Source of the DNA: Mermis nigrescens
Taxonomy: Eukaryota; Nematoda; Enoplea; Mermithida; Mermithidae
Direction: 5' to 3'
DNA: 64,000 nt
Assembly: GCA_036768485.1 (NCBI GenBank)
Contig: JAVLUZ010000513.1
Span: 420,272-484,271 of the forward strand
Shown: positions 1-35,934 of the stretch, piece after piece
How positions within the stretch are numbered: position 1 is the stretch's first letter
Layout of the letters: the number at the start of each line of letters is the position of its first letter
The notes under the pieces: model-generated
The model's database searches: none
The model's input: only the letters and a program-made list of their open reading frames with translations
What the model was told of the DNA's origin: nothing
Position numbers and translations under genes: made by a program

Positions 1-285
1 TGGGGGATGGTGCCCCCAAGCCTAGGGATGGTAGCCTAAGCGATGCTGTGGAGGTGGTCTAAATTGCGCCTAGGCCTACTAGTAGGAGGGAAGGTGGCAC
101 AAGAAGAGCAGTCCTACAGGGGGTTTCCCGGGAAACTCAAAAATTATTGATTTTATCGATCTTTTAGTAAGTCAAGAACCAGCAGTCGGATCGGGCTCAA
201 ATTTGCAGAGTACGTTAGGTATCCTATGTACAAACTTTTAGCGCGCGGCCCGCAGTATACCAATTTACTTTACACTTGGCAATAT
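1..285. other. unassigned left edge
   Basis: No gene, terminal repeat or known repeat is recognised here. It lies downstream of the last minus-strand gene of the gamma Polinton fragment. It does not match the terminal repeats of alpha or the proposed end of beta, so the left end of gamma is probably outside the window. Confidence 0.4.
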
Positions 286-600
286 TTAGTTTTTAAGCAC
301 AATGTAGCAGAGTATGTGCTCATCAATTGATCGTTCGTGAAAGTATGCAAAATATTGCTTTGCTTGGTCATTGAAATTTTGCCACAGATTAGCTAGAGTG
401 TGTATGTCTCGGAGAGTGCAACATTGTTTGATGAGGCGAGAAAAGTTGTTGAAAGCCTCTGCGTCGTATTGCAATAAATTTTCTTTGTACTCAGCATTGA
501 GCAGGGGCCAAAAGTAGCTGCCTAAGGCTGAGGAAGATATATCGTCTAGGCGAAGCAGGTGCATTAAGAAATGGTTGTAAATTTTTTGTCCTTGATCCAT
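286..600 (-). CDS. small Polinton protein of unknown function (gamma)
   Basis: An intact 104-residue frame without a recognised domain; it looks mostly helical with several aromatic residues and a Cys-Cys pair near the middle. The frame stays open 24 codons further upstream, but only from a TTG. The first ATG at 600 is preferred because a TATAAATA box lies 26-33 bases upstream of it, the same arrangement as in its neighbours. It follows the penton-like gene (ends 629) and is the last gene of the minus-strand set. Function unknown; its place in a capsid gene cluster suggests a virion or assembly role, which is inference only. Confidence 0.6.
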   Translation of the reverse strand: MDQGQKIYNHFLMHLLRLDDISSSALGSYFWPLLNAEYKENLLQYDAEAFNNFSRLIKQCCTLRDIHTLANLWQNFNDQAKQYFAYFHERSIDEHILCYIVLKN

Positions 601-625
601 GTTTACGATATTTGATAAACAGTGA

Positions 626-633
626 TATTTATA
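626..633 (-). promoter_or_regulatory. TATAAATA box of the 286-600 gene
   Basis: Perfect TATAAATA on the minus strand with 25 bases between it and the ATG at 600. It overlaps the stop region of the upstream gene. One of a set of similarly placed boxes in this cluster. Confidence 0.6.
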
Positions 634-1408
634 GGCGATATCTGAAATGCAGTTTAATGATAGTTTTGCCAAATTCGAAGGGAACGGCTTTATCTTGGTC
701 GCTTTTAATGTTCACTTCAACAGTATTGAATGCTTTCTTGAGTACAGGTATATAATGGGGGCTAATGTACGAGTGATTTACAATATCCATGTATTTTCCT
801 TCAATATTTACAACTTGCAGAAGTGGCGCAAAAGTATTCCCAACTATTTGAGGTTCAACTATATCGCAATACACGTAAAAATTATGCATACCACCTAGCA
901 TATCAGGCGAATGGTGCGCAACTATGCTAAATTCTTTTTTCACAGTATAATCTATATTACTAAGCTGGCTCTCTAGAAATCCCAGCATATACATTAAATG
1001 CTTTGTCAGCTTTACACTTTGAATATATTTAGAATTTATTGTCATATGACAAAATTTTCTATTTTCATCATACTTTATGCCAAAATATTGCATGTAATCA
1101 AATTTATCTATTGAGCTAATTGTTTTTATTCCATTTCTCATAGCTTGAATGAGGTCATGTATATTTAAATATCTTGCTCGAGGAATAAGCAATTTTTGTC
1201 GCACATTGTTTTTTATATCATAAAATTGTATCATATTCTGCTCCTCGGGAACATTGTGCCATGTATTTGCATAAATTATTTCTACTAAACCAACCTCCCA
1301 CTCACCATTCAATACAATTTGTCTAGGCAGATTGGTAAGAAATGTGGCTGCAGTATTTGTTTCTTGTGAATTGCTTGGAAGAGTAAGGTAAAATTGTTTC
1401 ATATCCAT
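629..1408 (-). CDS. Polinton penton-like minor capsid protein (gamma)
   Basis: An intact 259-residue frame. The N-terminal pattern (FYLTLPSN, then GEWEVG at residues 35-40) and the C-terminal pattern ending in LHFRYRL match a protein that recurs in insect and cnidarian Polintons next to the capsid and protease genes. I take it to be the single jelly-roll minor capsid (penton) protein, by analogy with the published assignment of Polinton minor capsid proteins. It starts 3 bases after the protease stop and has a TATAAATA box 25-32 bases upstream of its ATG. A distant paralogue is at 5234-5995. The family call is firm; the penton role is inference. Confidence 0.75.
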   Translation of the reverse strand: MDMKQFYLTLPSNSQETNTAATFLTNLPRQIVLNGEWEVGLVEIIYANTWHNVPEEQNMIQFYDIKNNVRQKLLIPRARYLNIHDLIQAMRNGIKTISSIDKFDYMQYFGIKYDENRKFCHMTINSKYIQSVKLTKHLMYMLGFLESQLSNIDYTVKKEFSIVAHHSPDMLGGMHNFYVYCDIVEPQIVGNTFAPLLQVVNIEGKYMDIVNHSYISPHYIPVLKKAFNTVEVNIKSDQDKAVPFEFGKTIIKLHFRYRL

Positions 1409-1410
1409 GT

Positions 1411-1836
1411 TTACAACTTAAAATTATTGAAGTATTTATAGATTTTTTCATGTTGCATTGATGTGACAATGTTCTTAAACAAAATACCTTGTGCACGGCA
1501 AACTAGGAAATATACACACATGTGAACACAGCTGATTGAAAAGAGCCCCTGTACCTGCGCATTATTGTATGCATAGGTGAGTGCATTATCTGAAATATAA
1601 TGCAATAAGTGGTTAAATGGTTTTCGCCCATAGCTGTCAAAATAGTCGCAGTGTTTATTGCTTTGAAAGTATATGGTGACCCAGTGCGAGCCAGGCGCAT
1701 TGCTAGTATCTAAATTAATCACTAGAGCCGCAGGGTAGGTTATAATAGGTGGCAGGCGGTCTAATGGAAAAGCACCTAAAAATATATCCTTTTTAATATT
1801 ACGCTGAAGAATTTTGAATATTTCAATGGTATTCAT
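1411..1836 (-). CDS. adenain-like cysteine protease (gamma)
   Basis: An intact 141-residue frame with the catalytic layout of the Polinton/adenovirus maturation protease: His51 in GSHW, Asp67 in YFDSYG, Gln94 or Gln96, and Cys103 in SISCVHMC. The glycine that usually follows the catalytic cysteine is valine. In Polintons this enzyme is thought to process capsid proteins during assembly. It lies 3 bases after the capsid fragment and 2 bases before the penton-like gene. A second, divergent protease is at 3156-3692, showing that two lineages meet in this cluster. Confidence 0.85.
   Translation of the reverse strand: MNTIEIFKILQRNIKKDIFLGAFPLDRLPPIITYPAALVINLDTSNAPGSHWVTIYFQSNKHCDYFDSYGRKPFNHLLHYISDNALTYAYNNAQVQGLFSISCVHMCVYFLVCRAQGILFKNIVTSMQHEKIYKYFNNFKL
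1433..1440 (-). promoter_or_regulatory. TATAAATA box of the 629-1408 gene
   Basis: Perfect TATAAATA on the minus strand, 24 bases from the ATG at 1408. It lies inside the 3' end of the protease gene, so the promoter is embedded in coding sequence. Confidence 0.6.
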
Positions 1837-1839
1837 TTT

Positions 1840-2249
1840 CTATGCATTATAGTCATGAAAGGTGTTTCGATTTTTGTCAATCAGTATTAAGTTATCAAAT
1901 TCGGCGTATATAATGATTTCCACGCCAGAATCAGGCAAATTGTCAGCAAACCTTACAGTTATGCTCGTTGTTCCTTCATGCACTAGATCCCAATGCCCTC
2001 CATCATCTGCGTCAGGCATTAGGTAAAACACAAAGAAGCAGTGGCTTGTTTTAAACTCGTCTCTGCTAATGAAATTACCTTCACGTCCTATATCTAGTGC
2101 ATCATACATCTGATTATAAGCTTGCAAGTACCTATCGTGTTTGAATGCAATGTTGAGTGGATAAGCGGGGTAGGTTGTGCCGCCACACGTTACTTTTACA
2201 TCATATATACTGTATTTTTGTTTATCCCGTACTTTTGTTTCTGGTAGCG
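1840..2249 (-). pseudogene. major capsid protein, C-terminal part only (gamma)
   Basis: The frame encodes the C-terminal part of the Polinton double jelly-roll capsid protein (F54H12.2-like). Visible marks are YPAYPLNI, YNQMYDALD, HWDLVHEGT, SITVRFA, YAEFDN and IDKNRN, which align in order with the end of the other copy at 3726-4992. The first jelly roll and the middle are missing. The readable part begins at about 2250, where an unrelated small gene ends, and has no ATG of its own near the break. It is therefore a 5'-truncated remnant, although its C-terminus is uninterrupted up to the stop at 1840. Confidence 0.8.
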
Positions 2250-2486
2250 CTAGTAAATAAAGAGCCGTTGAATATTTTCTACAATAACCCCTGCTTTAGA
2301 ACTGAACAAACCATTAATTAGGTGTCTGGTTACTTGCGTTAAAACGGAATAAAATTCTTTGGGCGCCTGTCTTATTAATAATTTCCAAAATTTTGGTTTG
2401 ATTGAACGATTGCCCAGAAGCTGAAAATAGGGTTCGCTAATTTTAATTTCTCGTACAGCTTTTGATGTTGACATTGTTAATGCCAT
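2250..2486 (-). CDS. small helical Polinton protein (beta)
   Basis: A 78-residue frame from an ATG at 2486 (a second ATG follows at codon 5). Its pattern of a 'FQLL.N...K' start followed by a 'LL..APKEFY..L..V....LNG'-like segment resembles a short helical protein often seen in Polintons; I cannot name its function. A TATAAATA box lies at 2509-2516, 22 bases upstream of the ATG. It follows the ATPase gene and ends exactly where the truncated gamma capsid frame begins, so its C-terminus may be altered by the junction. Confidence 0.5.
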   Translation of the reverse strand: MALTMSTSKAVREIKISEPYFQLLGNRSIKPKFWKLLIRQAPKEFYSVLTQVTRHLINGLFSSKAGVIVENIQRLFIY

Positions 2487-2508
2487 TATTTTATGCTTTA
2501 ATTCTACA

Positions 2509-2516
2509 TATTTATA
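2509..2516 (-). promoter_or_regulatory. TATAAATA box of the 2250-2486 gene
   Basis: Perfect TATAAATA on the minus strand, 22 bases from the ATG at 2486, the same position as in the neighbouring genes. Confidence 0.55.
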
Positions 2517-2566
2517 TCTTTAGGATGCCATATTATCATTGGTTGTTCGTCAGCAAACAAATTCGA

Positions 2567-3168
2567 TCAAAGACAATTGCGAAGATAGTCAGCAAACACA
2601 TCAATCAATAGATAATTGTATGGCCTGTTGTGCATCGTTTTTAAGTAAGCGGCTTTTAGAGGACCTTTTGGCCCATATAATTGAGTATTGAGAACGTCTA
2701 ATACATTGAGATGAGGACTTTTTGTAAGTAAGAAATAGTGGGTGTTTCTGTTTATAGTAGTGGAAAGGGGGCCTTCAAAGAAAGGATTCTGTGTAATGAA
2801 AAAATTTAAAATATTTCTATGGTGTCCATATACAGTAAACAAACAACCAAAAATTTCACTTTTCACAGCCACGTCCGCCAAATCGTCAACCATGCAAACG
2901 TTAACTTTCCCTCTTCTTGTTCTAATTTGTTTTCAATTTTTTTGGCGCACAAACCTTGAACAAATGTCATGCTAGGAAACTGTTCAATAAATTTTTCGAA
3001 AAGCGGTTGCCAAATATTGAAAAAATAAATCATTTTTCCTTTTTCCGATTTGAAAGGCCATTCTGTTAATAGTTTAAGTAGTAAGGTTTTCCCGCTTCCT
3101 GTTGCCCCACTAATTACGAAATTGGCTGGCACCCTCAAATACATTATATTGTCATTTATTTGTTCCAT
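2567..3168 (-). pseudogene. DNA-packaging ATPase (FtsK/HerA type), one frameshift
   Basis: Two frames together give the Polinton genome-packaging ATPase. The first has the Walker A motif GATGSGKT at residues 21-28. The second has the Walker B segment CMVDDLAD and the motif FFITQNPF. They are joined at about 2885-2893 by a single-base shift, so the gene is broken as sequenced. ATG 3168 is preferred to the GTG 18 bases upstream; it overlaps the end of the protease gene by 13 bases. The enzyme would pump DNA into capsids. A sequencing slip is possible because only one base is involved. Confidence 0.85.
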
Positions 3169-3692
3169 AATGTACAACAAATACACTTTTGATTATCGCT
3201 TGAAGAATAAACGCATATTTTACAATAGAAAAAATTGAAAAACCAATTTTGCACAATGGTATCTTTTTGTTTTGTGTTGTTTGTAAAATAACTCAAAATA
3301 CTATTTATGCTCTTTCTTTGACATAGAAAATAAGCCGCGAAGATGCAATAAATGCCGCACAGATTGGATTGATCGGATTGCAGTTGTTTTGAACTACTTA
3401 TTACCAAATTTGACGAAGCTATGACATTATGTACGACTGAATCAAATGAAGCACCATAGAAAGTAGATTGTTCCCCAAAACTATCGAAAAATATCACATT
3501 GTGCGCTCGCTTATAAAGAACCACCCAGTGTAAGCCAGAATGACTCGAAGGCGCGATATTGAATATAAAGAAAAATGTTTTACGATTTTTAATTAAAGTT
3601 GTAGAAAATTTGTCATACGGTAATACATCGACAAAATATGGTTGAGTAACCTTGGATAATTTCAATATAGCCCATAATTGATTTGCATACAT
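3156..3692 (-). CDS. adenain-like cysteine protease (beta)
   Basis: An intact 178-residue frame with His55 in GLHWVV, Asp70 in FFDSFG, Gln105/Gln108, and Cys112 in NLCGIYC, the full catalytic set of the Polinton maturation protease. It keeps the CG pair that the gamma copy has lost. The C-terminus is cysteine-rich and longer than in the other copy. A CATAAATA box is at 3723-3730, 30 bases before the ATG. It lies between the capsid gene and the overlapping ATPase gene, the usual Polinton context. Confidence 0.85.
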   Translation of the reverse strand: MYANQLWAILKLSKVTQPYFVDVLPYDKFSTTLIKNRKTFFFIFNIAPSSHSGLHWVVLYKRAHNVIFFDSFGEQSTFYGASFDSVVHNVIASSNLVISSSKQLQSDQSNLCGIYCIFAAYFLCQRKSINSILSYFTNNTKQKDTIVQNWFFNFFYCKICVYSSSDNQKCICCTLWNK

Positions 3693-3725
3693 TTTTATTA
3701 TAGCTTAATAACAGTTTATTGATAT

Positions 3726-4992
3726 TTATGGTATGAAGTCTAGAATAACGTTTTTTCTGCTGTCAAATGTTATAACATTATCCCATAATAAATAGAACAA
3801 AAATACGCGATGATCGGTAAAAGCGGTGGGACCCCATTGAACCGAGAAAGTAACTATTCCGTTTGTTTTTGGGGTACACCTCTATTATCTGGATTTAAAT
3901 CGAACACTAAGATTTGATTTCCGCTCTCTGAAAAATTGTCATAAGTGAGGCCAGTATTTGAATCCGAATACAACTTTTGCACTATTCTTAATGAATTCAA
4001 ATAAGGCTCTAACATCAATTCCTCAGGCTTATAGGGGATGGGAGGAAATAATCGACCATTCATATCCAACTGAGCCGAAACACATGAGGCTATGTGAAAT
4101 AAGAAAGGATTGGATGAATAATGACCCAAAAATGCGTCGCCATTAACTTTTGTGATTATTACTAGATGGGGTAATTGTCCATTATGAAGTACAAAATTAG
4201 ATAAATGGGTTTGACCGGGAGATAATTTGGTGGTTCGCACTAACGCGTGCCGGATGGGATAATGAGCCAGTCTGTTCTGTAGGGAACGCTCTATTGCTAA
4301 AATTGCAGAACTGTTTAAACTAATACGTCAAACTTTTAAGATAATTTTTGTTATTATTACCTTTTCATTTTTTTAACTTGGCCCAATAAGATTAAAAATG
4401 GAGCCGGGGATTGGAATAAGGTTATAGAAAATCTGATGCCAGGGATAATTAACTTATTTTGAAGAAAAATATCACAATGTAAATGACCTATTACTTCAAC
4501 AGTATCACTTTTTTCAAATTTTTTAGCTCTTTTATCGTAGGATGAATTTTTGCCGGCTACTGTAGCGTTAAACTGTCCACCCGTTTCTTTATAATACATT
4601 TGTGGTATACCTATAGCGCCCTTTTTTGCAGCTGACGAATACGTGAAGTGGGTCTCGACGTATGCCCTATACGAGTATGAGCCAGTGGCCTGATTTATTA
4701 TAACACCGTTGGCCTTGAGGACAACATCTTTGAATAAAGCGTGTAGCAATAAGTTTGTTGGTGCTACACAAACATCATTCGCCAATACCAAATCATCTCT
4801 GTTTAAAATTTTAACGCTCACTTTGATCATGAAATTAGGATCCGTTAGCTGAGTGAAAGTCTCTGGAACATCGAATTGTATAGGCCCATCGACGGAAATG
4901 GGATTTATAGGGTAATATTCGATTTCACTATCATTGACAATTTGCGTTTGAAATTGAGGGCCAGAAAAAAGATCTAGTTTATTTTGAGCCAT
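3726..4992 (-). pseudogene. Polinton major capsid protein, double jelly-roll (beta), broken
   Basis: The N-terminal 211 codons (from ATG 4992) show the F54H12.2-like signature: LDLFSGPQ, PIQFDVP, a SYSYRAYVE segment and HCDIFLQ. The second half follows at about 4345-3854 (LAIERSLQN, YPIRHA, NGQLPH, YSSNPFLF) and the last piece reads in another frame down to 3726. At least two disruptions separate the pieces, at about 4330-4390 and 3860. The total matches a capsid of about 400 residues. Known Polinton major capsid proteins form the icosahedral shell. A TATAAATA copy at 5074-5081 lies 81 bases upstream, further than usual. Confidence 0.85.
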
Positions 4993-5072
4993 ATTTAGAA
5001 TTTCTCAAAGCATAAATCTGACAAAGTTTATCTTTATTTGCCAAAGTTTGTTTCTTTTTACTACCAACACTC

Positions 5073-5231
5073 TTATTTATAGACTTTTTCTCCCCCCTGC
5101 TGTTGTCGCGGAGGCTCTTTTTTGACACTTTTCTTACGACCTCTCTTTTTCTTGGTCTTTATTTGAGATTCGGCCTTAATAATTGGTACTGCGTGAGTCG
5201 GTACCATAGGTAATGAAAATGGTTGATACAT
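5073..5231 (-). CDS. small basic protein, possible core or DNA-binding protein
   Basis: A 52-residue frame from ATG 5231. The N-terminal half is neutral and proline-rich (MYQPFSLPMVP); the second half has a lysine/arginine run with KTKKKRGRKK and SVKKEPP, like a nuclear localisation or AT-hook-type segment. It sits 2 bases after the penton-like gene and 80 bases before the capsid gene. Size, charge and position resemble small basic virion core proteins of adenovirus-like particles, but this is inference. No TATA box is seen directly upstream. Confidence 0.5.
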   Translation of the reverse strand: MYQPFSLPMVPTHAVPIIKAESQIKTKKKRGRKKSVKKEPPRQQQGGEKVYK

Positions 5232-5233
5232 TT

Positions 5234-5995
5234 TTAGTATGCTGGTCTAGAATGAAACTGCACTAATAACGAGTCTATGATAGGAAATGCATTTCCATGA
5301 ATATCACTTATAACTAATTGTATGGAAGATATATAGTTTCTCATTACTTCATAATAAACTGTGTCCCCATATTTATAACATTTTAAATGATTAGGGGTTG
5401 AAGAAAACACATCAACAAAAACTGTTTGCAAATTCAAAGAACCAAAAATTTCTGGAGCTGTTAAATCAACGTTCAAACAAAATATAGGAATGGGGGAAAG
5501 AAATCGGATTTTGCTTTCCGATTTTATTGCAATGTTTTTGGTAGGCAAAAGCGTAGGATAAGTAGAATCTGGTTTTAATTCCAAAACGTAATTTAAATAC
5601 TCAGACTCAATTTGAATACACGTGTTAGAAATGTTAAAAACGGCGTGATTATTTTCATCGATATCAATATTAAAATCTTTTTTAATAGTTTCCAGAATTG
5701 ATTTATTGATATAAAAAATCAAATCTTTTACATTTGAACCTTGTAAATAATTTGTAATACCAAAATAATTAAAACTTGAATCATTAGGATTATCGGGAAG
5801 TGTGTATCTTATGTATCCACCATAATCAAATGTGGATTTCAAAACAACTTGTTTCACACCTACCTCCCATTCTCCTGTAAACTCTAAAGGTTTTGTGAGT
5901 AAACATCTGTGAACATTGTTATTTTTAGTAACTGGACCATCTAAAGAATTGAAAAATAACATAAAGTCTTTTGGTCCACTTGTAAAGTCATCCAT
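5234..5995 (-). CDS. Polinton penton-like minor capsid protein (beta)
   Basis: An intact 253-residue frame, a distant paralogue of the gamma copy at 629-1408. Both share GEWEVG (here residues 41-46) and a C-terminal 'L.V.FHSR' / 'I.LHFR' ending. The overall identity looks low, so the two copies belong to different Polinton lineages and are not a recent duplication. A TATAAATA box at 6039-6046 lies 43 bases before the ATG. The gene lies between the integrase and the small basic gene. The assignment to the penton role is by family and position. Confidence 0.7.
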   Translation of the reverse strand: MDDFTSGPKDFMLFFNSLDGPVTKNNNVHRCLLTKPLEFTGEWEVGVKQVVLKSTFDYGGYIRYTLPDNPNDSSFNYFGITNYLQGSNVKDLIFYINKSILETIKKDFNIDIDENNHAVFNISNTCIQIESEYLNYVLELKPDSTYPTLLPTKNIAIKSESKIRFLSPIPIFCLNVDLTAPEIFGSLNLQTVFVDVFSSTPNHLKCYKYGDTVYYEVMRNYISSIQLVISDIHGNAFPIIDSLLVQFHSRPAY

Positions 5996-6038
5996 GTTTT
6001 CGTTGGTATTGTTGCTGAAATGTTAGAGTATGAATTTA

Positions 6039-6046
6039 TATTTATA
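6039..6046 (-). promoter_or_regulatory. TATAAATA box of the 5234-5995 gene
   Basis: Perfect TATAAATA on the minus strand, 43 bases before the ATG at 5995, overlapping the 3' end of the integrase gene. Confidence 0.5.
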
Positions 6047-7083
6047 AGTTTATTAAATTCGAAACCCAAGAATCACATTTTTCAGGATAGTTCCGCCATC
6101 TCACAAAATAGTCAGTCTTATTGCCTCGTTTACGGGTTTTTAATATTTTTTCAATAATGTATATATTTTCTTGATTATGGTCAACTTTCTGAAGCTCTGC
6201 TTCATAAAAAATTCCACTCAATGTTTCCCCCATTTGATCTTTCAATCTATAGACGGGAGGTTTTCGAGCTAAACGATTCTCTATGATGAACCATTCTTCA
6301 GTCCAATTAGGTCAATATCCTTTTTCAAAAGTACGTTTGACTTTGCTTATTTGTACTTTATCACCTATATCAAATTTGAAACGAATCTTCACTACCCCCA
6401 CCCTATACGTATTATTAAGAATAGATCTCTCGTTTTCTTTGCTTACATTTGCCGGAAAAGTTCGTATTGTCCTATGGTACGAATTATAATTTTCTAGCAA
6501 ATCAGCCAAAATGTCAACATACTTATACGTGTTTTTGGCCGTAAAATATCACCACATTTTCTCTTTCAAAGTTCAGTTGAAGCATTCTATGACACTAGCT
6601 TTTAATTCGCTTCTTGTTGTAAAAAAGGTGATATTATGGCGTTTTAAAAGCTGCTGAAACTCTTTGTTTACAAACTCGGAACCGGCATCTGCTTGCAGTT
6701 TTTGAGGTATACGTCCCCGCTGAAGTATATTTCCGAATGCATCGACTACATCTTTAGTGTTTTTAGTTTTAATGGCCACCGACCACGCGAACTTGGAGAA
6801 CAAGTCAATGCAGTTCAAAAGATATTTATATTTATCATTATGATCACTCAACAACTTGAGGTCAACGAGATCAATCTGCCACTGTTCGTCGATGTAAGAA
6901 ACTAATACTCTATTTCTACTATATCTCTTTTTAGAGGGTTTATGTGATGTATATGTCGGTTGTTTAGCCAGCCATGCTTTCACCTGCAAAAGTTTCAAAT
7001 TAGGTAACTCTTTCGTATAATTGATTTGCCCCAGAATACCCAGTCTTGCTATTATAATACAAGTTTTTCAATGTTCTATCCAT
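6042..7083 (-). pseudogene. Polinton retrovirus-type integrase with chromodomain, decayed
   Basis: The frame runs from ATG 7083 through a rve integrase core and ends in a chromodomain. The catalytic acidic residues are visible in WQIDLVDL, QADAGSEF and SVIECFN. The chromodomain shows IYIIEKIL, FVRWRNYP and CDSWV. One single-base shift lies at about 7005 and three in-frame TGA stops at about 6568, 6550 and 6313; at least two stand where arginine is expected, consistent with CGA to TGA decay. A TATAAGTA box at 7114-7121 is 30 bases upstream. The enzyme would insert the element and make the 6-bp duplication; this copy cannot. Confidence 0.9.
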
Positions 7084-7206
7084 TTTGGTTATATTGAATT
7101 AAGGCACTAACAATACTTATAGATAAATGAGCAAGATTTTTTTTTGGGTTTTACATTTTTATTATTTTTTTTGGGGGGTTTTTTATTTTTTAATCATAAA
7201 TAATAC
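7084..7206. other. integrase promoter and T/G-rich spacer
   Basis: Contains the minus-strand TATAAGTA box at 7114-7121, 30 bases from the integrase ATG, and a T- and G-homopolymer-rich stretch (7138-7192) between the integrase and the zinc-ribbon gene. Confidence 0.45.
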
Positions 7207-7536
7207 TTAATAATTCAATTTTTCCTTTTCTTTCTCCAAATCTTGGGCTATATATTGCCTTATAACGCTGTTTCCTGCATCCTGAGATGATTGGTTATAT
7301 TCTATACATCTTGGACACATTTGTACAGTGAAATATGTACGTCCTGAATTTGTTTCAAAACAATCTTTTTCCGAACTGGCTCTTTGACAATAAAAACATA
7401 ATTGAATCATGAGAGGAAACATCGGCTGTTCTAAGTTTTGCCCACAAAGAGCTATTGGCAGTCTAATCTAATTGCCATACGGCTTCCTTTCTTTATCACC
7501 GAACAGACGTTTCTTAATTTCATTCACTTCCTCCAT
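7207..7536 (-). pseudogene. zinc-ribbon protein with one premature stop
   Basis: From ATG 7536 the frame reads 22 codons, meets a TAG at about 7470, and continues in the same frame to 7207, about 109 residues in all. The second part has two CxxC pairs (CFYC and CPRC) spaced like a zinc ribbon. A TATAAATA box at 7574-7581 lies 37 bases before the ATG. A downstream ATG at 7422 could still give a 71-residue product with both CxxC pairs. It lies between the TBP-like gene and the integrase. Zinc ribbons are common in transcription factors, but no function can be assigned. Confidence 0.5.
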
Positions 7537-7573
7537 ATTTGAAAGGTTTTCTATTATTTAGGAACGGTATTCA

Positions 7574-7581
7574 TATTTATA
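7574..7581 (-). promoter_or_regulatory. TATAAATA box of the zinc-ribbon gene
   Basis: Perfect TATAAATA on the minus strand, 37 bases before ATG 7536, overlapping the stop codon region of the TBP-like gene. Confidence 0.5.
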
Positions 7582-8122
7582 GACTCTTGCCTACATATTT
7601 ACTCTGAGTCACCAGATCGTTTATTAATAAATTTGCTCGAATGAGATTATGTCTAGTTTTAGCACCAGTAAGAATAATTTTTCCAGATGTATAAATTAAT
7701 GCTGTTATACCAAAATTGTTAAGCCGATAGGTGAGAGCTGGTTCGCAAAGGCTGTATTTCCTATTCCGATAATAAAACTTTTTTAGATCAATTTGAAATG
7801 GAACACTGAAAGAGCCTACAAAGTTATTGATTTTGACAGTTACATGATGCGCTATATTAAAACCTAAACTTTTTAAAATTTCTTGGATTTTTCTGACCGC
7901 TTTTTCTACTTCTTCTTCCGTTTTTGCGCCGATACATACCATTTTGCCCAATTTAAATAACAATACCGTTATTTTTGGTTCTGTTAATTTTAAGCTTAAA
8001 CCTGGAAACCGACCCGGCTTATACTTGATCCGATCAATGTTTTTCTCTGCTATTAAAGATAAATTTGATTTACATCTCAGATTTGCCGACCCAATAATGT
8101 TACAAACGATTAAACCTGCCAT
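7577..8122 (-). CDS. TATA-binding protein (TBP) homologue encoded by a Polinton
   Basis: An intact, intronless 181-residue frame equal to the TBP core alone, without the N-terminal extension of animal TBP. Both direct repeats are visible. Repeat 1 (residues 3-88) has KYKPGRFPG, EPKITVLLF and GKMVCIGAKTEE. Repeat 2 (94-172) has KINNFVGS and SGKIILTGAK. The DNA-kinking phenylalanines of repeat 1 are kept (F39, F56). Repeat 2 has lost about four residues after EPAL and has tyrosine (Y144) for the last phenylalanine. It is far too divergent for a recent host retrocopy. Neighbouring genes carry TATAAATA boxes, so it may direct their transcription (inference). Confidence 0.9.
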   Translation of the reverse strand: MAGLIVCNIIGSANLRCKSNLSLIAEKNIDRIKYKPGRFPGLSLKLTEPKITVLLFKLGKMVCIGAKTEEEVEKAVRKIQEILKSLGFNIAHHVTVKINNFVGSFSVPFQIDLKKFYYRNRKYSLCEPALTYRLNNFGITALIYTSGKIILTGAKTRHNLIRANLLINDLVTQSKYVGKSL

Positions 8123-8384
8123 CCTTTAGGACATAAAACTGTCACATTGATTAAAATGCATAATGCATAGCATCATAAAAATGGCTTTTTGCAGGCATCA
8201 ATAAGAAAAGAGGGTATAAGAGGGGTTAAAAAGGGGGGTTTATAAGGTAGGACTGAAAGAAAATGTACAATACATGACATCTTAGAATTGGCTTTTTGCC
8301 AGCACCAATAAGGTGAGAGAGTGTAAGAGAATTTGAAAAACAGGGTATATAAGGCACAACAAAATGAAAAATATCACTCAGGAC
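8123..8384 (+). promoter_or_regulatory. repeated TATA-box region upstream of the F-box gene
   Basis: Two degenerate direct repeats (near 8178 and 8292, sharing a GGCTTTTTGC core followed by CAATAAG) each precede a plus-strand TATA-like site. GGTATAAG occurs near 8214, TTTATAAGG near 8239 and GTATATAAGG near 8344. The last one, before the MITE insertion, would place transcription start near 8375, with the ATG at 8717 about 70 bases downstream once the MITE is removed. Confidence 0.4.
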
Positions 8385-8650
8385 CATAGGTGGGCAGCTC
8401 CGAAATTCTGGGGGGAGGGTGAAAAAATTTCTGGGGGGCGAAAAAATTTTTAAAGGTCAAAAATGGCCTTAAAAATGGTGGTATGGCGAAAAAAACACCA
8501 TTTTTCGACGTTTCTCATCAAGCTCTATCCAATGGCATCAAAAAATTGCTAAAAAAGCAAAAAAAATTTTTCTGGGGGGTATTTTGATCTCTGGGGGGTA
8601 TTTCAACTTCTGGGGAGTGCATACCCCCAAACCCCCCACGCCCATGTTTG
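8385..8650 (+). mobile_element. hAT-like MITE, copy 1, in the F-box gene promoter/leader
   Basis: A 266-bp copy of the family, flanked by a perfect 8-bp duplication CTCAGGAC (8377-8384 and 8651-8658). The left end is CATAGGTGGGCAGC. The right end is decayed. It separates the TATATAAGG site from the start codon of the F-box gene, close to the expected transcription start. Confidence 0.8.
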
Positions 8651-12060: not shown

Positions 12061-14131
12061 TCACTTTGTCGTCAGTTTCAAATACTTGTCAGCAGGAAAT
12101 TCATCGTCCATCTTTTGTGCATCAGCCATTAAAATTTTTTGCTCCCACTCGCTTAAATCGAACCCATACTGGCTGCAAGGCGGAGAAGCCGGCGATTCAA
12201 CTAAAAGTGCAAAAATCATAAGAATTTGTAACATAATTTTTTTACGAATTTACTTATTTACAAAAATTTTTTATTAATAAATTTTTTAAAACATTGTTTA
12301 GCATAATGTTTAAAGCTGAGTGTTTATAATTTTTAATAAAAATTTTATTTGTAAACAAATTGCAATAATCGCATTTTATAGCTTTCTTTTACAAAACATA
12401 AAATAAATCATAGCCTGACTTCTCGTTCATGCGCAGTTTTTTGGGGTATTGACTTCTAAGGAAGGAATTTTTTAAAATTTTTATTATACTATCTAATCAA
12501 TTTGGACATTAGTATTTGAATATTTGTTGAACGTGTTCAGACGGAACAGCATAATAACAAGTTGTGAAATTTTTAATAAAGGATTTTACCTATGACTAAA
12601 TCGTCGCTTGACTCCTCTTCCACTTGCACCTTTTCTTTCTTAGGCAAATTGCCATCTATATAAAAAATTTATCAACAATATTGAAAATTTCAATCAAAAA
12701 GTTTCGATATGATATCAAATTAATTTTAACATTTGCAATTATTTATCGTAATATTTGCAACAAACGACAAATTTAAACTTATTAATAAATCAACTTAAAG
12801 TTTTAGCATACCTTCTGACTTCTCGAGTTTGATGATGCACAGCTTCTTCTTCTTAGGTAAAAAATCATCCCCGTCTAAATAAAAAAAATTTGTTATCACA
12901 ATTTTGCATAATTTTAAACAGGCGAACAATAGAAAATTTAATTAGGCACAAAGACAAATATTTGCAAATTATACTCTTTGGTTCAGTTGCAGCCAAATCG
13001 TCGCACTGTTTGGAACGTTTTGGAGTTGATTGCTGATCTAAAAATATTGCTTGAAAGCAAATTATTTTCAGCAAATAAAGTTAAAAGATTTATTTGACTT
13101 TCATTTAACGTTTTTTCTATTTTGTATAACCGAAATTGAACTTCTGTGCGTTTATAAAATCTACAAATTAGAAAATAGATAATATTACGTCATATTAATT
13201 CTTAAATTTTCGAAATTAATTTGTCGTTTAGTACGTACAAAATTATATCTAACCTGCATCAAAATCGAACACGCTGTACATCTTTTTATTCTCGAAACTT
13301 GCTCGGGCAGTTTTGTCTTTTTTCTTTTGACACAGAGCACTAATTTCGCTGCACTTGTCTCGCTTTTTACGAATCAACGAGCCTTGAAACGAATCAATTA
13401 CATTCTAAACATAGAGAAAATGAATGTAGACGATTTTATAAAAAATAATAGTTTCAAAAGAAAAATTTTTAGCTGTAATTTTTACATAAATCTGATATTA
13501 ATGCAATAAAAATCTCAAATCCTGCCCTTTTCAAATTATAATTCATTTGGGCACAATAAACAAAAATTAATAGCGCATATCTAAGATTTTTAAAATTTTT
13601 TGTTGACTCACGAACTAGGGCTAGACCTTGGTTAGCTTTACTTTTGCACAAATATTTGGCTTTTTCGTTTTTGAACTTTCTTTTAATGCGCTGTTTATTC
13701 CTAAAAAGTTTAATGTACTGAATTTTTAAGGTACCTTGAATTGTTTCTATTGATTCCTTGATAGCCTTTTTCACATTGCACCATTTCAAAAACTGAATTG
13801 ACGTCAAAATAAATCGCTTTCCTTGTACGTCATTCTCAAAAACGAATTTCTTGTTGAATAACCCTGTTTCCACTCTTGCGACTGTATTCCAGGTCAAAAT
13901 TACTTTGCAAGCCGGCCTGCCATATAATATAGCTTCCTTGATCTCTTCTGTAGCACCCACAAGCTTCTCGTATTGACAAAGCATAAGATTAATGCCGTTT
14001 TTTGTAGGGAAAACCGGATTATCCCAGACCTTGCATTCTCTGAATCCAATGCTGACAAAGCCATTCCACTCTGATACCAAGCAGTAAACATTTTCGCCCA
14101 AGTCAAATTCAAAGCGCTTATCAGAAGCCAT
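12061..14131 (-). CDS. PC4-like transcription coactivator, six exons (alpha)
   Basis: Exons 14131-13612, 13382-13254, 13037-12975, 12874-12812, 12655-12590 and 12200-12061 join in one open frame. Every intron has GT-AG ends (donors GTGAGT, GTTAGA, GTATAA, GTATGC, GTAAAA) and all are phase 1. The product is about 326 residues. The N-terminus matches the PC4/SUB1 DNA-binding fold: FDLGENVYCLVSEWNG, IGFRECKVW and PTKNGINLMLCQYEKL (residues about 8-62). The tail is charged with KRSK and PKKKK runs. PC4 binds single-stranded DNA and assists RNA polymerase II. No disruption is seen, unlike the polymerase gene next to it. Exon joins are by eye. Confidence 0.75.
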
Positions 14132-26074: not shown

Positions 26075-26930
26075 CTCACGGTAACCTAGTACGTCGTTAG
26101 CTTATTCAACTATTTTTATTACTTACTAATAATCAGCTAATATTATACACAATAATATTATAGAACAGTACGTACTAGTCGAGGTGACAATCCGCGTAGG
26201 TAAGTCTCGGAATAAAATCAGTTAAAAATATATTAATAAGACGCGAACACGAACAACTGTACAGCCGAGGTCAGAAAACTATCAACTAACTCTTCGACTC
26301 CGAGCTACAGAGGAAAAAAGACCCTTCGCCATGGTGCTTATCACTTTTATTTACCAATTTTGTGGGTGGGGCTAGGCTTGTTTACCTCAACTCTTATTGG
26401 TCAATTCATCTTTGTCGTGTTTAGCTAATCTATTAGCTAGTATGATTCTTCTGACTTTTACGACCCTGCGTACTTTCTACATGTAATGAATTTTACATAT
26501 TTGGAAAGGTAAATATTTTGAATTTATTCGGAGTCAAGTTTGAGTAAAATGACCCATTTTAGGTAACTTTAAGAGTAAATAAGCTTGGGGAATTTGTAAG
26601 CTATTATTCGGATTTTTCCGGTTTGGGCCAGAAGTTTAGCATTGGAGATGCTACATTTGTTGACTAGAATCGCTTTTCAATCAAGTTAGGTCATGTTTGA
26701 TCATCAAATAATAAGGGTCAAACACATTGCTTTAAAATCTTTGAGAGTAAATAAAGTCTGGGGGAAAATAAATGTACATAAGTAATCACGGAAGAATTCT
26801 AACATTGAAAGAAGAAACGGACTTTGTACCTAGCAATTATACATAGTATTTTGATAAACGCGTGATAAGTATCCACGAAAACTATTAAATATAACTATTT
26901 CTGAGAAAACTGTTTTACTCTTCCGTGACA
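26075..26930 (-). repeat. 3' LTR of the Gypsy-type element
   Basis: 856 bp, minus orientation beginning TGTCACGGAAGAG. The other edge reads CTCACGG where the partner LTR has TGTCACGG, so the terminal CA of this copy is altered. Otherwise it matches the other LTR except for two substitutions and the MITE. Confidence 0.95.
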
Positions 26931-26949
26931 CGTCCCCTGTAAAAAGAGG
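26931..26949 (-). promoter_or_regulatory. polypurine tract region
   Basis: On the minus strand a purine-rich ACAGGGGACG lies directly before the 3' LTR, in the position expected for the plus-strand DNA primer of a retroelement. Confidence 0.5.
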
Positions 26950-29601
26950 TCAAACGTCCTCGTTTGGCTTTGGCATCGTCAGGCTTCTTAACTTGTACGT
27001 ATGTCTTGGGGCAGGTTTTGGTTTGTTTGTCGTGGTTTCTGCGGCTGGTGTTGCTTGACTGTCCGTTGAAGGCTGATTGTGATGTTGAGCGTCAATGGTG
27101 GTGTCTTCATCTGATTGATTTTGGCGGGGAAAATATTTCTTGGTACGGTTCACATGAACCGTGGCAACTTTTTCTTTACCGAGATCAATTTTTATATTTG
27201 GGTATTTAACTTCAATGATACGAAACGGTCCAAGGTATGTTTGGAGGAGTTTTTTGGGGATTCCTCTATTTATCGATTCATTCTCAAGTAATATCATGTC
27301 ATCGATTTTATAGGTAGCGTTATGTATCCTACTATCATATGTCTTTTTATACCGATTTTGTGACTTTTCAATCTGTTCCTGAATTATTTTTAGGGCTGTT
27401 GAGAAGTGACGTTTGACTTCCAAGTCATATGTTTCAGCGTCAATTAAGTATAAGGGGCGTTTGTATGTTAGGGCCATATCAATGGGAAAATTTGGGTTCC
27501 GTCCATATACGAGTGTAAAGGGAGAATAGCCTGTAGTTTCGTTTTCGTGAATGTTGGTCGCAAATACTGCGTATGGTAAATGCTCGTCCCAATCCGGCTC
27601 ATTCAAATCTATGTACATTCTTATCCGTGTCGTTAGTGTTTGATTGGCTCTTTCTACTTCTCCATTGGCTATCGGGTGATATGCGGTGGTGTGGATTTTC
27701 TTTGTCTTAAATAGTTGTGTAATTTCAGTCATTAATTCTGAGGTGAAATTGCTGCCTCTGTCTGATTGTAGGATTGCGGGAGCGCCATGTCGGCAGATTA
27801 TTTGAGTAATAAATAGCTTAGCTATTGTTTGTGCTGTAATATTTGGTGTGGCATAAGCTTCGATGTATTTCGTAAAATAATCTATAAATACTACTACGAA
27901 TTTGTTTCCCGCTTCTGTCAGATTCAGGGGTCCGAGGCAGTCTACTGCGATTCGGTGAAATGGACCAACACAAGTAATCGGTTTGAGATTTGCCAAGATT
28001 TTCCTCCGTATGGGTTTGTTTCGTTGACATTTATCGCATGTTTTACAGTATTTAAATACGTCTTTGTGCATGTTTTCCCAAAAATACTTTTTTGTAATCA
28101 GACTAAGGGTTTTTCGAGTGCCAAAATGTCCAGCAAGCTCATCGTCATGGTAAGTGTAAATGATCAAATTCTTTAATTTCTCAGGAACGACAATTTTCTT
28201 TGTATTTTCGTCCGCCTTGTACAAAATGTCATTCTCAACAACATAACCTTTTTCTGGTTCAGCTTTCTCAAAATGTGGTTTCAATGTATCATCTTGTTTT
28301 TGGAATTCAGTTATGTTTATCTTCGGATATTCTTCGATTTCCTCGTTATTTAGACCATCTATGTACGTGCCTCTTAGCTCACAAATTACGGTGTTGATTA
28401 ATCTTTCTTGTGTATCGTATTCATCAATGTCAAAGCATTGATTTTCTTTAGCATTTGGCAATCGCGATAATGCATCAGCATTTTGGTTTTTGATTCCTTT
28501 TCTTGGTTCAACATTAATTCTTATTCCTGCTAAGGCGAGTCCCCATCGAGCAATTCTTGCTGAGGGATTTGGCTTTTCTATGACGGATTTGACGGCAATA
28601 TGGTCAGTTTCAACTTTAACTTCTTGTTGATACAAGTATGGGCGAAAATATTTTATGAATTCAACTACTGCTAACGTCTCTAATTCGGTAACTGGGTAGT
28701 TCTTTTCTGCCTTTTTTAATGTTCTACTAGCGAAAGCTATGGGGTGTTCTTCCTCATTTTCTTGGATTTGTGATAAAACTGCTCCTATTCCATTGTATGA
28801 GGCATCCGTTTGTAAAATAAATGGTTTGGTAAAATCAGGGTGTTTTAGGATTGGTGGTTTGATGAGTTTTTCTTTAAGTTCGTTGAATGCATTTTCTTGT
28901 TCTGGTCCCCATTGGAATGCATTTTGCTTTCTCAGTAATTTATTGAGGGGTTCAGCTATTTTGGAACAGTTTGCAATAAACTTCCTATAATAGGATATTA
29001 ATCCAAGGAAGGATTTAATATCTTTGACATTTTTCGGTTTTGGCATGTTTTTGATTGCTTCTATTTTCTGATCGTCGGGTAAGATTCCTTTTTCTGAAAT
29101 TTTATATCCCAGATAGTTAGTTTCCTCATGCGCAAATTTGCACTTTGAAAGGCGAAGTTTCATATTGGCATCATTTAAGCGCTTCAAAATCTTTTCTAAT
29201 CGTTCTGTTAGTTCTTCAATGTTTTTTCCGAAAATTAAAACGTCATCAAGATACACTAGGCAAATTTGCCACTGTAATCCTGATAATATTATGTCCATAA
29301 GACGGGCGAATGAGGCTGGGGCGTTGCATAATCCAAAAGGTAGATTATTAAATTCATAAAGCCCTACAGGCGACAAGAATGCTGTTTTTTCTTTGTCTTT
29401 TTCTTCTATACCTATTGTATAGTAAGCGTTTGCTTGGTCTAAAGTTGCAAAATATTTCATCCCTTTAAGCGTGTCAAGGATATCGTCGATTCTTGGTAAT
29501 GGGTATACATTCTTTTTAGTTACTGTGTTGAGTCCTCGAAAATCAATGCACATTCTATGTTTTCCGTCTTTTTTCTTACTAGGACTACATTTGTGGACCA
29601 T
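26950..29601 (-). pseudogene. pol: reverse transcriptase, RNase H and integrase (Gypsy-type)
   Basis: An 883-codon open frame. The reverse transcriptase starts at DGKHRMCIDFRGLN and has the active site YLDD. RNase H shows ILQTDASYNG, TELETLAVV and TDH. The integrase has a HHCC-type zinc region (YHDDELAGHFG, CDKCQ), then the catalytic triad in AVDCLGPL, LQSDRGSNF and NGEVERANQ, and a GPFRI/chromatin-facing tail. The frame lacks the first part of the reverse transcriptase, which lies one frame away at 29520-30296. The two meet at an A-AAA-AAG heptamer (29568-29574), so the break is either a one-base loss or a -1 shift site. Confidence 0.9.
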
Positions 29602-30296
29602 GGTGAAGAACTAGGTCGGATTATACCTTTGTCTTCGAGTTTCCTTATTTCTTGCGTTATTATCTCTTTTTCCTTAGGAGATGTTCGGAAGGGGTATTTT
29701 CGAATTGGTGTGTTGTTTCCCGTGTCAATCGTGTGCCGTATTAAGTTGGTTCGTCCCGAATCCATTTCATCTCGGGCGTATAAATTTGGAAATTTAAGTA
29801 GTGTGTTGATGATTTTCTGCCGTTCTGTTTGAGTGAGATTTGGTGATATATTTGCGTTTTCTTCAATCCATTTATCTGCTTCAACTTCGTTAATTATGTT
29901 TGTATCAGTGTTGCAATCTTGATTATTTGTTTGTATGTAAATGGTTCCAAGATGAATATTTTCGCGCAATTTAATATCATAGGATCTTGGGTTCATAACT
30001 TGGACAGGTATTAAGCCATCTTTTGTAGTACAAATGACGTTAGCAAATTGTAAATCACTTTCATATTGATATTTTTTAGGTGTAAATACTACAACTTTAT
30101 TTTCGGGATACAGAATAGGTGTTTTAGCATATATAATGCCAGTAGATCGTGCGGGTACTAGTTCGTCGCGAGCTAGTATTACTGTACTTATGTTCTCAGG
30201 TGGGCTGTAGTTCATGCCCTCGCATAGGATAGGTATTTGACGGAGACATATCGTGAATTTCTTCCAATTAAGTTGTATATTTGGAAATCTTCCCAA
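29520..30296 (-). pseudogene. pol: protease-to-reverse transcriptase linker and RT N-terminus
   Basis: A 258-codon open frame. Its C-terminal part has the RT finger region (IRKYPFRTSPKEKE, GIIRPSSSPWST, VVLVRKK) that belongs directly before the 26950-29601 frame. Its N-terminal edge overlaps the protease frame (30212-34027), which seems to continue into it by another -1 step near 30290. Thus protease, this linker and the main pol frame are each one frame apart. Confidence 0.8.
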
Positions 30297-33200
30297 AAAT
30301 TAGTTCCTAAAATCAATTCTGCAGAGCATTCTCTTTGTATGTAAACGACGATTGTTTCATGTACGTCAGCTACTTTTATGCTAATTAGGGTAGAACCTAT
30401 GACAGGTATTATTTGTCTATTTGCTGCTACAGGCTGAATATTCGTTGAGTGTATTCTCAAATTCGGGATCGTATTGGCAACTTTTTCGTCTAAGAGAGAA
30501 AATACTGCTCCTGTGTCTATCAGTGCTCGTACCTTTACACAGTTATTTATTATTGCTTCAATATGTGGAGTTTGCGTGATTTTGCTATTAATAGCCGTTA
30601 TTTGCACAGTTGATTCATGACGTTCTGAGGGAGTTTTTGTCCAAGTTACTTTATTTATTTTTCGATATTTTCGTTCTTTTTGCTTTCCATTTTTTATTTT
30701 TAATATCCTCCAGAGTGCATTTCCTAATGTTTCGTTGGTTGGTCTGGTTGAGGGTAGAAAAGTGGTGCTTGTTTTCTTTTTCCGATTTAAAATATATAAA
30801 TATGCGAAATATCCGATGATTAGAGCCGCAAGAATTATCAATAAGAGATTTATCAATAATTGAATTGGTCCTTTTAGCAGCGTTCCGAAATTAGAAGTAA
30901 AACTAGATTGAGTTCCTTCAATGACATTCTCTATTGCGGTTCCTGCACCTATTAGAGCGTTTTTAACGCCAGTCCCTGCTCCAGACAAAGCTTCATATAT
31001 GGTATCTGGCTGTAATGACATCATAGAAGTATACTGTATCAGGCGATGCATTGCTTTCTGTAAGAGTTCAGTTTTATATAAATAATTTCGAAAAAGTCCG
31101 AAAGTAGGTTGACCCACAGCTAATCGGTCGTGAAAAACTGAGGGGGTATTGAATTGAAACAGAGTATTATTATCTTCCCAACTTAATTCTAGAGGGATTT
31201 CAGAAACATGTGTTATTCCAGAGCTTGTGATCCATTTGTCCTTATATCTAAAAATTTCTATTTTCTTGTGCAAACAATTTACTGTTTCGGAAAAATGGAC
31301 TAAATCTATGCTTCCTGGAAGCGAAAACCATAATTTTCCATCATATTCGACCGGCAAGTACTTATAACATGTGTCATTTACTTTATGTTCCGCATAAATT
31401 CTAGTCACATTTACTTTTCTGCAGCTCCATACCGTTAAAATTTCTCCGGTGAATTCGGCAATAATGTCGGTCCTACGGAAAAATGCACGCGCTCCTACTG
31501 TAGGATCTAGATATAAAAGCTGCCAAATGACATCGATGTGACGCTGTAATTGCTTACACAGTTCTAGCCAAATTCTACGGAAAGCACTGACTTCACCCTG
31601 TAAAATTCTATACTCCAAATAATTTAGCTTAGAATTTACTGGATCGTAAAAGATAGTCCTATTCAATTTAGCCGATTCTTGTAGAACTTGCTTAGATGTA
31701 AAAGCGTAAATCCTTACTAATATACCTTGCTCGGTGCTAAATGCTTGTTCGATAGTGCTGCATTTTGCAAATCGGTTGCGGATGACAAACGCAGATTGCA
31801 ATGCATCTACAATTACGTAAGGTAGACTTATTAGTGCTGAGTAAGTTCCTTTTAGTACATAAGGGCACACTTCTCTAAATATCTCACCATCCCAAACGAC
31901 AGTACTTTCTGTCATTTTACAGTTTCCATATATAGGTCTACAGCTACTTAAATCACCTAAATCCGACATAAGCGTATCACCGTCCCAACTTGCTACTGTT
32001 CCTTCTTCAATTATGAAGTTAGAAACTGATGAACACACTTGTTTACAGCACCAGCTAAATTGTACGCTTAGCCGAAAATTCGTTGACCAAAAGCCATGTT
32101 CGTCTTTTTCTAATCTATCGCTCATATATTTTTTCCTACTGTACGAATCTTTACATACATCATGCAGAATAGGGAACGTATGTGATTCATCGGAAATCAT
32201 CCCTTTAGATCCGAAAAATCCAGTAAAAGTGCAAACAGAGCGAGTTAGAATCATACATTTTATGGCCTTAGTGTTTTTAGGGATAAAACGTGGGACATAA
32301 ATTGTAACATTTTGCTTTTTCGGTTGTACCAAAAGATCTTCCGGTAAAGAGCATTGAACAGTACGTGGGAGGCTTACTGGATGTCCACTCCTACTAGTAC
32401 CACAAATCTGAAATTCAGTTTTGCATTTTAAAGGCAATACGCAAAACATGTATATGATTAAATATAAACGCTGTGCCATTAAGATTGAATATAAACGTCG
32501 CATAACTGAAATCAAATTCAAACGTCGCATCACTGAGAGTAAATAAGAACTTTGCATTGAGATTAAATATGAATATGGCAGCACTGAGATTATATACTTA
32601 TAATATCGCTTAATCAATGATAAATGGAAGTCATAAATCACTTTAATCACGCTGCTCCTTTTAATTTTCGCCGTTTCACTTTCATCGTCTTCACACTTTT
32701 TCGTCGTCGGAACTTTCTGCAAAAATTCTTTGTAATTCGCTTTTTCAAAAATACATCCTAGGAATAACATTGCCCACTTTATTTTTTTACGATTTTTAAT
32801 CGTACTGAAATGCATTCTAGTGTCTTTATCGACTTGCTTTTTGTTATTTTTGACAAATTCTCCACAACATTGGAAAGAGATGGCGTCAACTCTTAAGCTT
32901 TCCTTATTTTTCTTTTCATAATTTTCCAAAAATAATGATAGATTCAGTATCACGTAAGAGACTAACAAATCGATCATGCACGATAATTTTGAATAGATCA
33001 CCGTCTTTAATTTACGAGTTTTTCTTGAAAAACTTATAAATGTAAGTAAATAATACCGTGAAATCAATAAAATTTCATGCGATACTATTGCATGCATGCA
33101 AACGTACAAAAATTCAGATATTAAAGAATGAATCGTGGTTAATTTGAGACATTTAAGCTTCAATGTTTTACAATATGCTTGAATATGAAGCAAATATCTT

Positions 33201-35795: not shown

Positions 35796-35934
35796 CCTCT
35801 TATTACAATTAGTCGGATGTTTTTCACTATTCCCGTTTTGCTTTTAAACGAGACTCGTTGCTGAGCAAACGTTGGCCACCGTTGGACAGCAAACAAGGAT
35901 CTCACGTAAAAATTACGAAAAATTTGTTAAATTT

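Follow-up and report, generated by a model that had tools for sequence, protein, structure and literature searches.

A gene for a TATA-binding protein (TBP) lies in what reads, from its gene content, as a decayed mobile element of the Polinton/Maverick type, within a stretch of 64,000 nucleotides from Mermis nigrescens (the window), and is most likely an integral gene of that element. This agrees with the original prediction that a Polinton-type element carries its own TBP. The strongest evidence is the junction between TBP and the following zinc-ribbon-like gene: both genes are on the same strand, the gap between them is 40 bp, and the TBP stop codon falls inside the TATAAATA box of the next gene. 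Such a stop-in-box design recurs at two other junctions of the same gene train and nearly at a third, and because the TBP junction matches these we count TBP as a gene of the element rather than an adjoining host gene. The most economical function would be service to the element's own TATA promoters. We give a probability of roughly 55% to the whole of this explanation, in which the gene is old, element-borne and strongly diverged, and its product would be dedicated to drawing the host polymerase to element promoters.

The train is arranged leftward on the minus strand (table 1). TBP and its 40-bp gap are followed by the zinc-ribbon-like ORF, the integrase, a 253-aa ORF, a 52-aa basic ORF, a capsid-like gene, an adenovirus-type protease, a P-loop ATPase, a 78-aa ORF, a C-terminal capsid-like piece, a second protease-like gene, a 259-aa ORF and a 104-aa ORF. 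Like known Polintons/Mavericks, it has an rve integrase with a chromodomain, an adenovirus-type protease, a P-loop ATPase and capsid-like ORFs on one strand; unlike them, it has a TBP gene by the integrase.

Table 1. Features of the TBP-containing gene train and of its upstream boxes, ordered leftward (positions in the window).
Feature	Position	Strand	Remarks
Tandem pair of units of about 111 nt	8153..8370	minus	Units 8260-8370 and 8153-8263, 73% alike; directly upstream of TBP
TBP-like gene	7577..8122	minus	181 aa; two TBP repeats without an N-terminal extension
TATAAATA box	7574..7581	minus	45 bp upstream of zinc-ribbon ATG; contains TBP stop codon
Zinc-ribbon-like ORF	7207..7536	minus	CxxC-x20ish-CxxC; one in-frame stop; ATG 40 bp after TBP stop
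TATAAGTA variant box	7114..7121	minus	About 37 bp upstream of integrase ATG
Integrase, interrupted	6042..7083	minus	rve core and C-terminal chromodomain; Pfam and structure matches
TATAAATA box	6039..6046	minus	51 bp upstream of 253-aa ORF; contains integrase stop codon
253-aa ORF	5234..5995	minus	Uninterrupted
52-aa ORF	5073..5231	minus	Very basic
TATAAATA box	5074..5081	minus	89 bp upstream of capsid-like ATG; overlaps basic ORF stop by two bases
Major-capsid-like gene	3854..4992	minus	Two open pieces (4357-4992, 3854-4327); presumed resemblance
Adenovirus-type cysteine protease	3156..3692	minus	178 aa; Peptidase_C5 24.2 bits (cut-off 21.3), E = 3e-5
P-loop, putative packaging-type ATPase	2567..3168	minus	Two open pieces, GATGSGKT in the first; P-loop profiles below cut-off
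TATAAATA box	2509..2516	minus	30 bp upstream of ATG 2486
78-aa ORF	2250..2486	minus	ATG 2486
Second capsid-like protein, C-terminal part	1840..2295	minus	Open piece; presumed resemblance
TATAAATA box	1433..1440	minus	32 bp upstream of ATG 1408; in-frame Tyr-Lys codons of preceding gene
Second protease-like gene	1411..1836	minus	141 aa; 21% identical to first protease over 131 aa
259-aa ORF	629..1408	minus	Uninterrupted
TATAAATA box	626..633	minus	33 bp upstream of ATG 600; contains 259-aa ORF stop codon
104-aa ORF	286..600	minus	Left edge of window; ATG 600

The integrase was recognized by the Pfam profiles rve (E = 5.5e-16) and Chromo (E = 3.3e-8) and by integrase chains among solved structures (E = 3.6e-5), and the first protease reached the chains 4piq_A and 4wx4_A at an E-value of only 0.07. 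The second protease-like gene matched the first among 24 pieces of the window (E = 5e-5) and scored 15.5 bits with Peptidase_C5, under the cut-off of 21.3. For the first ATPase piece all P-loop profiles were below cut-off (Pox_A32, 13.7 bits) and the second piece matched none, so that a packaging-type identity is suggestive. The zinc-ribbon-like protein had no Pfam family above cut-off. The product of the capsid-like gene appears to resemble the F54H12.2-type Polinton capsid, the piece at 1840..2295 the C-terminal part of a second capsid-like protein, and the 253-aa and 259-aa ORFs a penton protein and a second penton protein, respectively; the composition of the 52-aa product suggests that it may be core-protein-like. 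The capsid-like pieces had no family match among the profile libraries scanned, and a single-sequence fold of the first piece had a pLDDT of 31.9. No nameable family was found for the 253-aa ORF in Pfam, NCBIfam or PHROGs, a protein search yielded no relative of it, and no Pfam family matched the piece at 1840..2295. The head-to-tail order of TBP with zinc-ribbon, integrase, penton-like and capsid genes that had been proposed is borne out by the ORF order, but the capsid and penton identities were confirmed by no tool. Rfam gave no match at gathering thresholds.

No PolB gene was detected in the train, either by tblastn of the window's other PolB pieces against positions 1-8400 or by Pfam on 15 train ORFs; two other PolB gene sets are located elsewhere in the window. 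On the left the train continues beyond the window, and no repeat pair bounding it was found inside the window. It may be one element or two in a row, the latter considered because protease and capsid-like genes occur twice; a single element is favored because TATAAATA boxes stand on both sides.

The minus strand from 8122 to 7577 is a single open frame from ATG to TAA encoding 181 aa. A plus-strand reading of the same interval was ruled out by its many stops, and the earlier report of a frame with both TBP repeats holds with this correction of strand. The Pfam TBP family matched it in two stretches with 141.9 bits (cut-off 22.9, E = 5.6e-42), the top matches among solved structures were TBP chains (4roc_B, E = 1.7e-35), and the fold was confidently predicted as the TBP saddle, 1.3 A from human TBP over 174 residues. 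Based on profile, structure matches and predicted fold, the frame is assigned to the TBP family, in agreement with the original prediction, which had proposed both profile search and structure prediction as checks. The protein consists of the two-repeat TBP core only.

The expectation that this core is strongly diverged was also correct. In local alignments, the window TBP is 42% identical to the human core, 43% to Arabidopsis and 40% to yeast, 29–39% to 15 archaeal-type rows, 33–35% to four large-virus TBPs, 42% to a metagenome protein (P0002) and 36% to another returned protein (P0005); identity to a provisional sequence of human TBPL1, the only paralogue compared, is 32%. The alignment score between human and yeast cores is 716, as against 274 for the window TBP with eukaryotic TBP. 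By the same measure the window TBP is nearer to eukaryotic than to archaeal-type TBPs, and it scores 274 with cellular eukaryotic TBP as against 156–182 with the four viral ones.

When the human core was drifted neutrally to 42% identity, a mean of 5.1 stops appeared and zero stops were left in 0.65% of 2000 runs, under a simple substitution-only model that takes human TBP as its starting point and leaves indels and composition out of account. As the frame is open although neutral drift rarely leaves zero stops, the model suggests that it has probably been constrained during much of its evolution. It had also been pointed out that TBP is intact among broken genes. This is true (interruptions are seen in the frames of the zinc-ribbon, integrase, capsid-like and ATPase genes) but says little, since the neighbors of 253, 178, 141 and 259 aa are uninterrupted too, and we therefore set intactness aside as evidence of selection.

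To place the protein, relatives were taken from the best 120 of 7998 hits listed. The 122 returned protein ids supplied 17 rows of a first tree (26 rows), 10 of a second (18 rows) and 23 of a fold alignment. In the first tree the window TBP and P0005 drew a warning of long branches; for the second, P0005 and the TBPL1 row were dropped and the archaeal-type rows reduced in number. One viral-contig locus (L004) was left out of both trees and of the Pfam scan of such loci, its TBP being equal to that of L003 and its ORF lengths repeating those of L003. In the two trees, the end branch of the window TBP is 2.06 changes per column. The best second tree placed it beside archaeal-type rows with support of only 71/51; holding it with cellular eukaryotes was not rejected (p-AU = 0.21) and holding it with the four viral rows was not clearly rejected (p-AU = 0.054). 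These trees speak for the divergence of the protein and not for its parentage: the phylogenetic check that had been proposed contradicts a recent retrocopy by the long branch, but placement among archaeal, viral and eukaryotic TBPs is not fixed by it.

Residues were mapped by pairwise alignment to yeast TBP, whose numbering and residue roles are used here. Of the 16 columns without variation among the other 27 rows of a 28-row alignment, the window TBP keeps 13; of 17 that are nearly invariant it keeps 10. Two of the four phenylalanines which we take to intercalate into DNA (yeast 99, 116, 190 and 207) are kept, namely Phe99 and Phe116. The counterpart of Phe190, a residue invariant in the 27 other TBPs, is missing (a gap of one residue in the MAFFT alignment and of four in pairwise alignments), and that of Phe207 is Tyr144. 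Among ten minor-groove contacts seven are identical, and the other three (V71, T124 and V213) are all Ile in the window TBP. Of the TFIIB contacts, E186 is kept while E188 and L189 are not; one of three helix lysines is kept. The first half of the saddle therefore looks canonical and the second stirrup altered. Presumably, this stirrup inserts into DNA and, by its residue numbers, touches TFIIB, and the changes suggest that DNA bending and TFIIB contact of the element TBP differ from those of host TBP. The altered stirrup may reflect changed specificity, a decoy or a partner-dependent factor.

TBPL1/TRF2 has lost intercalating phenylalanines. Since TBPL1 also lacks some of these residues, their absence in the window TBP weakens the case for canonical TATA bending and not that for TBP family membership. 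The two proteins are alike in being strongly diverged, with similar end branches (2.1 for TBPL1/TRF2); TBPL1/TRF2 differs in being a cellular gene, in having lost other positions and in its identity of 32% (provisional sequence). Compared with eukaryotic TBP, a subunit of TFIID, the window TBP is core only, lacks Phe190, has Tyr for Phe207 and is encoded by a mobile element.

The gene starts of the train have a common TATA-type motif upstream, which is new here. Eight TATAAATA copies are present on the sense strand of positions 1-8400 and none on the other, as against 0.9 expected from a first-order Markov model and 1.4 expected from its frequency elsewhere in the window (18 copies in 55.6 kb, both strands counted; P-value = 9e-5). 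Half of the examined starts (six of the 12 chosen) have this box upstream, at -30, -32, -33, -45, -51 and -89; five have neither TATAAATA nor TATAAGTA (TBP, the basic ORF, both proteases and the ATPase). The two remaining copies, at 6830 and 5377, fall within genes, away from any start. As the motif was first noticed in the same sequences as those tested, a control over any 8-mer was made: TATAAATA is the most shared of all 8-mers upstream of the 12 starts, and the most shared 8-mer reached at most 5 in 1000 random-position sets and 1000 random-ATG sets. In a test with nine starts, four had TATAAATA (random P-value = 0.009) and four had TATAAA (P-value = 0.046). The 12 starts were chosen by hand: as a rule the first ATG of an ORF was taken, and for the interrupted zinc-ribbon and integrase frames the ATGs at 7536 and 7083, respectively, were picked out by eye. 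Two of the starts, ATG 600 and ATG 2486, were added once the boxes were known; both are the first ATGs of their ORFs. Seven ORFs of at least 50 aa (8387, 7422, 6233, 4063, 2893, 2109 and 1700) that overlap or lie inside other genes or are slight were left out.

Three of the eight boxes contain a stop codon, each time in the same register: that of TBP at 7581, of the integrase at 6046 and of the 259-aa gene at 633. A fourth box (5081) shares two bases with the stop codon of the basic ORF. Four of the eight (6830, 5377, 5081 and 1440) also code for Tyr-Lys in a gene; some of the boxes, and part of the strand bias, may therefore be due to coding sequence. Between -100 and about -14, no TATAAATA was found at the starts 14944, 14131, 44800 and 46112 (TTG) of other elements; start 44800 has a near-match, TATAAATC, at -45.

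Under the favored explanation, TBP would be produced, perhaps early, from an upstream region that is its own and differs from the others. The tandem pair directly upstream is a possible TBP promoter region: each unit has a CCTTATAWACCC stretch and there is no TATAAATA, which would fit another, perhaps earlier, control of TBP. The element TBP would then bind the TATAAATA boxes, and the bound protein would nucleate host RNA polymerase II on the other genes of the train; the element would thereby own a promoter-recognition factor. The altered stirrup might be compensated by a partner from the element, such as the neighboring zinc-ribbon protein, which is speculative. A TFIIB-like role for this protein, encoded between TBP and integrase (7207-7536, minus strand), is an idea only. 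On the other hand, TATAAATA fits the ordinary host TATA consensus, and host TBP could therefore serve these promoters. The proposal that the element chooses its own promoters thus gains from the shared TATA-type motif but is held back by the fit to the host consensus and the partial loss of the stirrup. A bolder version, tentative at best and more doubtful than otherwise, would see an animal Polinton lineage with its own initiation system, in which a TBP with a re-shaped stirrup, perhaps with the zinc-ribbon protein as TFIIB-like partner, reads stop-overlapping TATAAATA boxes and takes polymerase II without host TFIID.

Several other origins of the gene were considered. It could be a host TBP paralogue (TRF-like) which adjoins the train by chance or was captured only here; the higher alignment score with eukaryotic than with archaeal-type TBPs would suit this, as would the fact that a TBP within a Polinton-type element is known here from one copy. 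The tight junction with its stop/TATA design, the uninterrupted frame and the shared strand argue against it, as does the identity of 32% to human TBPL1 (provisional sequence), and we consider it unlikely. Acquisition from a large DNA virus, that is, of a giant virus or mirusvirus TBP, appears very unlikely: such viruses do encode TBPs and the tree with the four viral rows is not clearly rejected, but the window TBP scores better with cellular eukaryotic than with these four viral TBPs. A recent retrocopy of a host TBP mRNA has the uninterrupted frame in its favor and nothing else. It is contradicted by identities of 42% to human and 43% to Arabidopsis and by the end branch of 2.06, with human and yeast cores scoring 716 against 274; these references are not the host's own TBP, and the contradiction holds unless the latter is equally diverged, so that this origin is extremely improbable.

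The function could also be another than promoter service. As a decoy for host shut-off, the element TBP would bind host TAFs, TFIIA or promoters without productive recruitment of TFIIB and damp host transcription. The second stirrup, with one Phe absent, another changed to Tyr and TFIIB-contact residues lost, would suit such a role; yet the phenylalanines of the first repeat and most of the groove contacts are kept, and a pure decoy would harm the element because half of its own starts are TATA-type. We regard this as rather unlikely. Quite unlikely, too, is a role in integration or replication, by which TBP would steer the integrase to polymerase II/III promoters or bend the element ends. The integrase of Ty3 is steered by the TBP-containing TFIIIB, and this parallel and the clustering of TBP with the integrase speak for such a helper, whereas the common TATA boxes point to transcription.

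Relatives were sought in other collections. Scans of viral contigs with the TBP, the capsid piece, the integrase piece, a PolB alignment and P0002 found no relative, nor did a scan of genome contigs with the TBP. An integrase-motif pattern had no match in the viral contigs, and a capsid-motif pattern had one, a 312-kb contig with topoisomerase I and thymidylate kinase among the five ORFs scanned. A scan of viral contigs (IMG/VR) with a TBP alignment gave five TBP loci. The genes sampled there (the five largest ORFs of each of L001-L003 by Pfam; ORFs of L005 listed) include an Rpb1 piece, SNF2 helicases, DNA_pol_B, ribonucleotide reductase and topoisomerase II; neither an rve integrase nor a C5 protease was present among the ORFs scanned at those loci. 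Unlike the train, TBP is near an Rpb1 polymerase gene in L001 and near ribonucleotide reductase and topoisomerase genes in L003. As far as sampled, the five loci appear large-virus-like. No Polinton with TBP was found in the viral and genome contig collections scanned, in which no animal Polinton was identified. In a viral structure library, 52 models matched at E-values up to 0.001, and 9 of the 50 listed were named TATA-binding or TFIID.

The statement that some large DNA viruses have TBP homologues is supported by these library models and loci and by published work. Giant viruses and mirusviruses likewise have virus-borne TBP homologues; they differ in their large genomes and in the 33–35% identity of their TBPs to the window TBP. 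TBP is reported in 59% of mirusvirus genomes (PMC10132985), a giant virus TBP is mentioned (PMC11464507), and TATA-binding protein genes occur sporadically in Cymbomonas heliorhodopsin-containing mobile elements of putative virus origin, which are mirusvirus-related, unlike the train (PMC10675990). Chrysochromulina parva virus BQ1 is reported to encode a TBP and two TFIIBs, and the authors of that article propose that viral factors of these two kinds divert the RNA polymerase of the host (PMC12085832). The mechanism favored here is the same and, by analogy, has a published precedent outside Polintons, BQ1 being a large algal virus and not a Polinton (PMC12085832). Polinton-like viruses were also reported from the same host water, and the portions available of the article mention no TBP for them (PMC12085832). 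In the portions available of PMC12220804, PMC11071308 and PMC11071296, TBP or TATA-binding protein had no match, and in that of PMC7786948 the TATA-binding term occurs only in a reference title. As had been supposed, no description of a TBP in a Polinton was found in the literature searched, which consisted of papers open without subscription and was seen in part.

Other features were observed elsewhere in the window. An inverted-repeat pair (11378-11753/38599-38972) bounds another element and not the TBP train. Inside this pair, in the element that holds broken PolB pieces, a 220-aa ORF (13469-14131, minus strand) matched PC4 (transcription coactivator p15) with 24.3 bits, just below the Pfam cut-off of 25, and had no match among solved structures; a Polinton-like element of this window may thus encode a second protein of transcription type. 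At 39391-40412, not far from the right-hand repeat of the pair, is a tandem array with a period of about 178 bp. Positions 44800-47475 (plus strand) contain a further, third gene set of Polinton-like type, pieces of which share 42% identity over 114 aa with the piece from the PolB region near 17.8-18.2 kb. In addition, a Gypsy-type LTR element was found at 26076-37153, whose 793-bp LTRs are 99.7% identical and in which a viral fusion glycoprotein domain of the Monjiviricetes type (58.8 bits) precedes the protease within one long ORF (30212-34027, minus strand). A dispersed G-rich repeat of about 270 bp is present at 8385-8650 and near 9112, 25258, 37155, 43559 and 58035. The copy upstream of TBP has CTCAGGAC on both sides, like an 8-bp target duplication, which suggests that the sequence it entered, possibly the element, continues beyond it.

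TBP adjoining the integrase is a marker by which related elements can be found, and a direct test becomes possible of whether the element TBP separates element from host promoters. If a Polinton-type element indeed followed the strategy proposed for the algal virus, promoter capture would reach the small end of this virus world.
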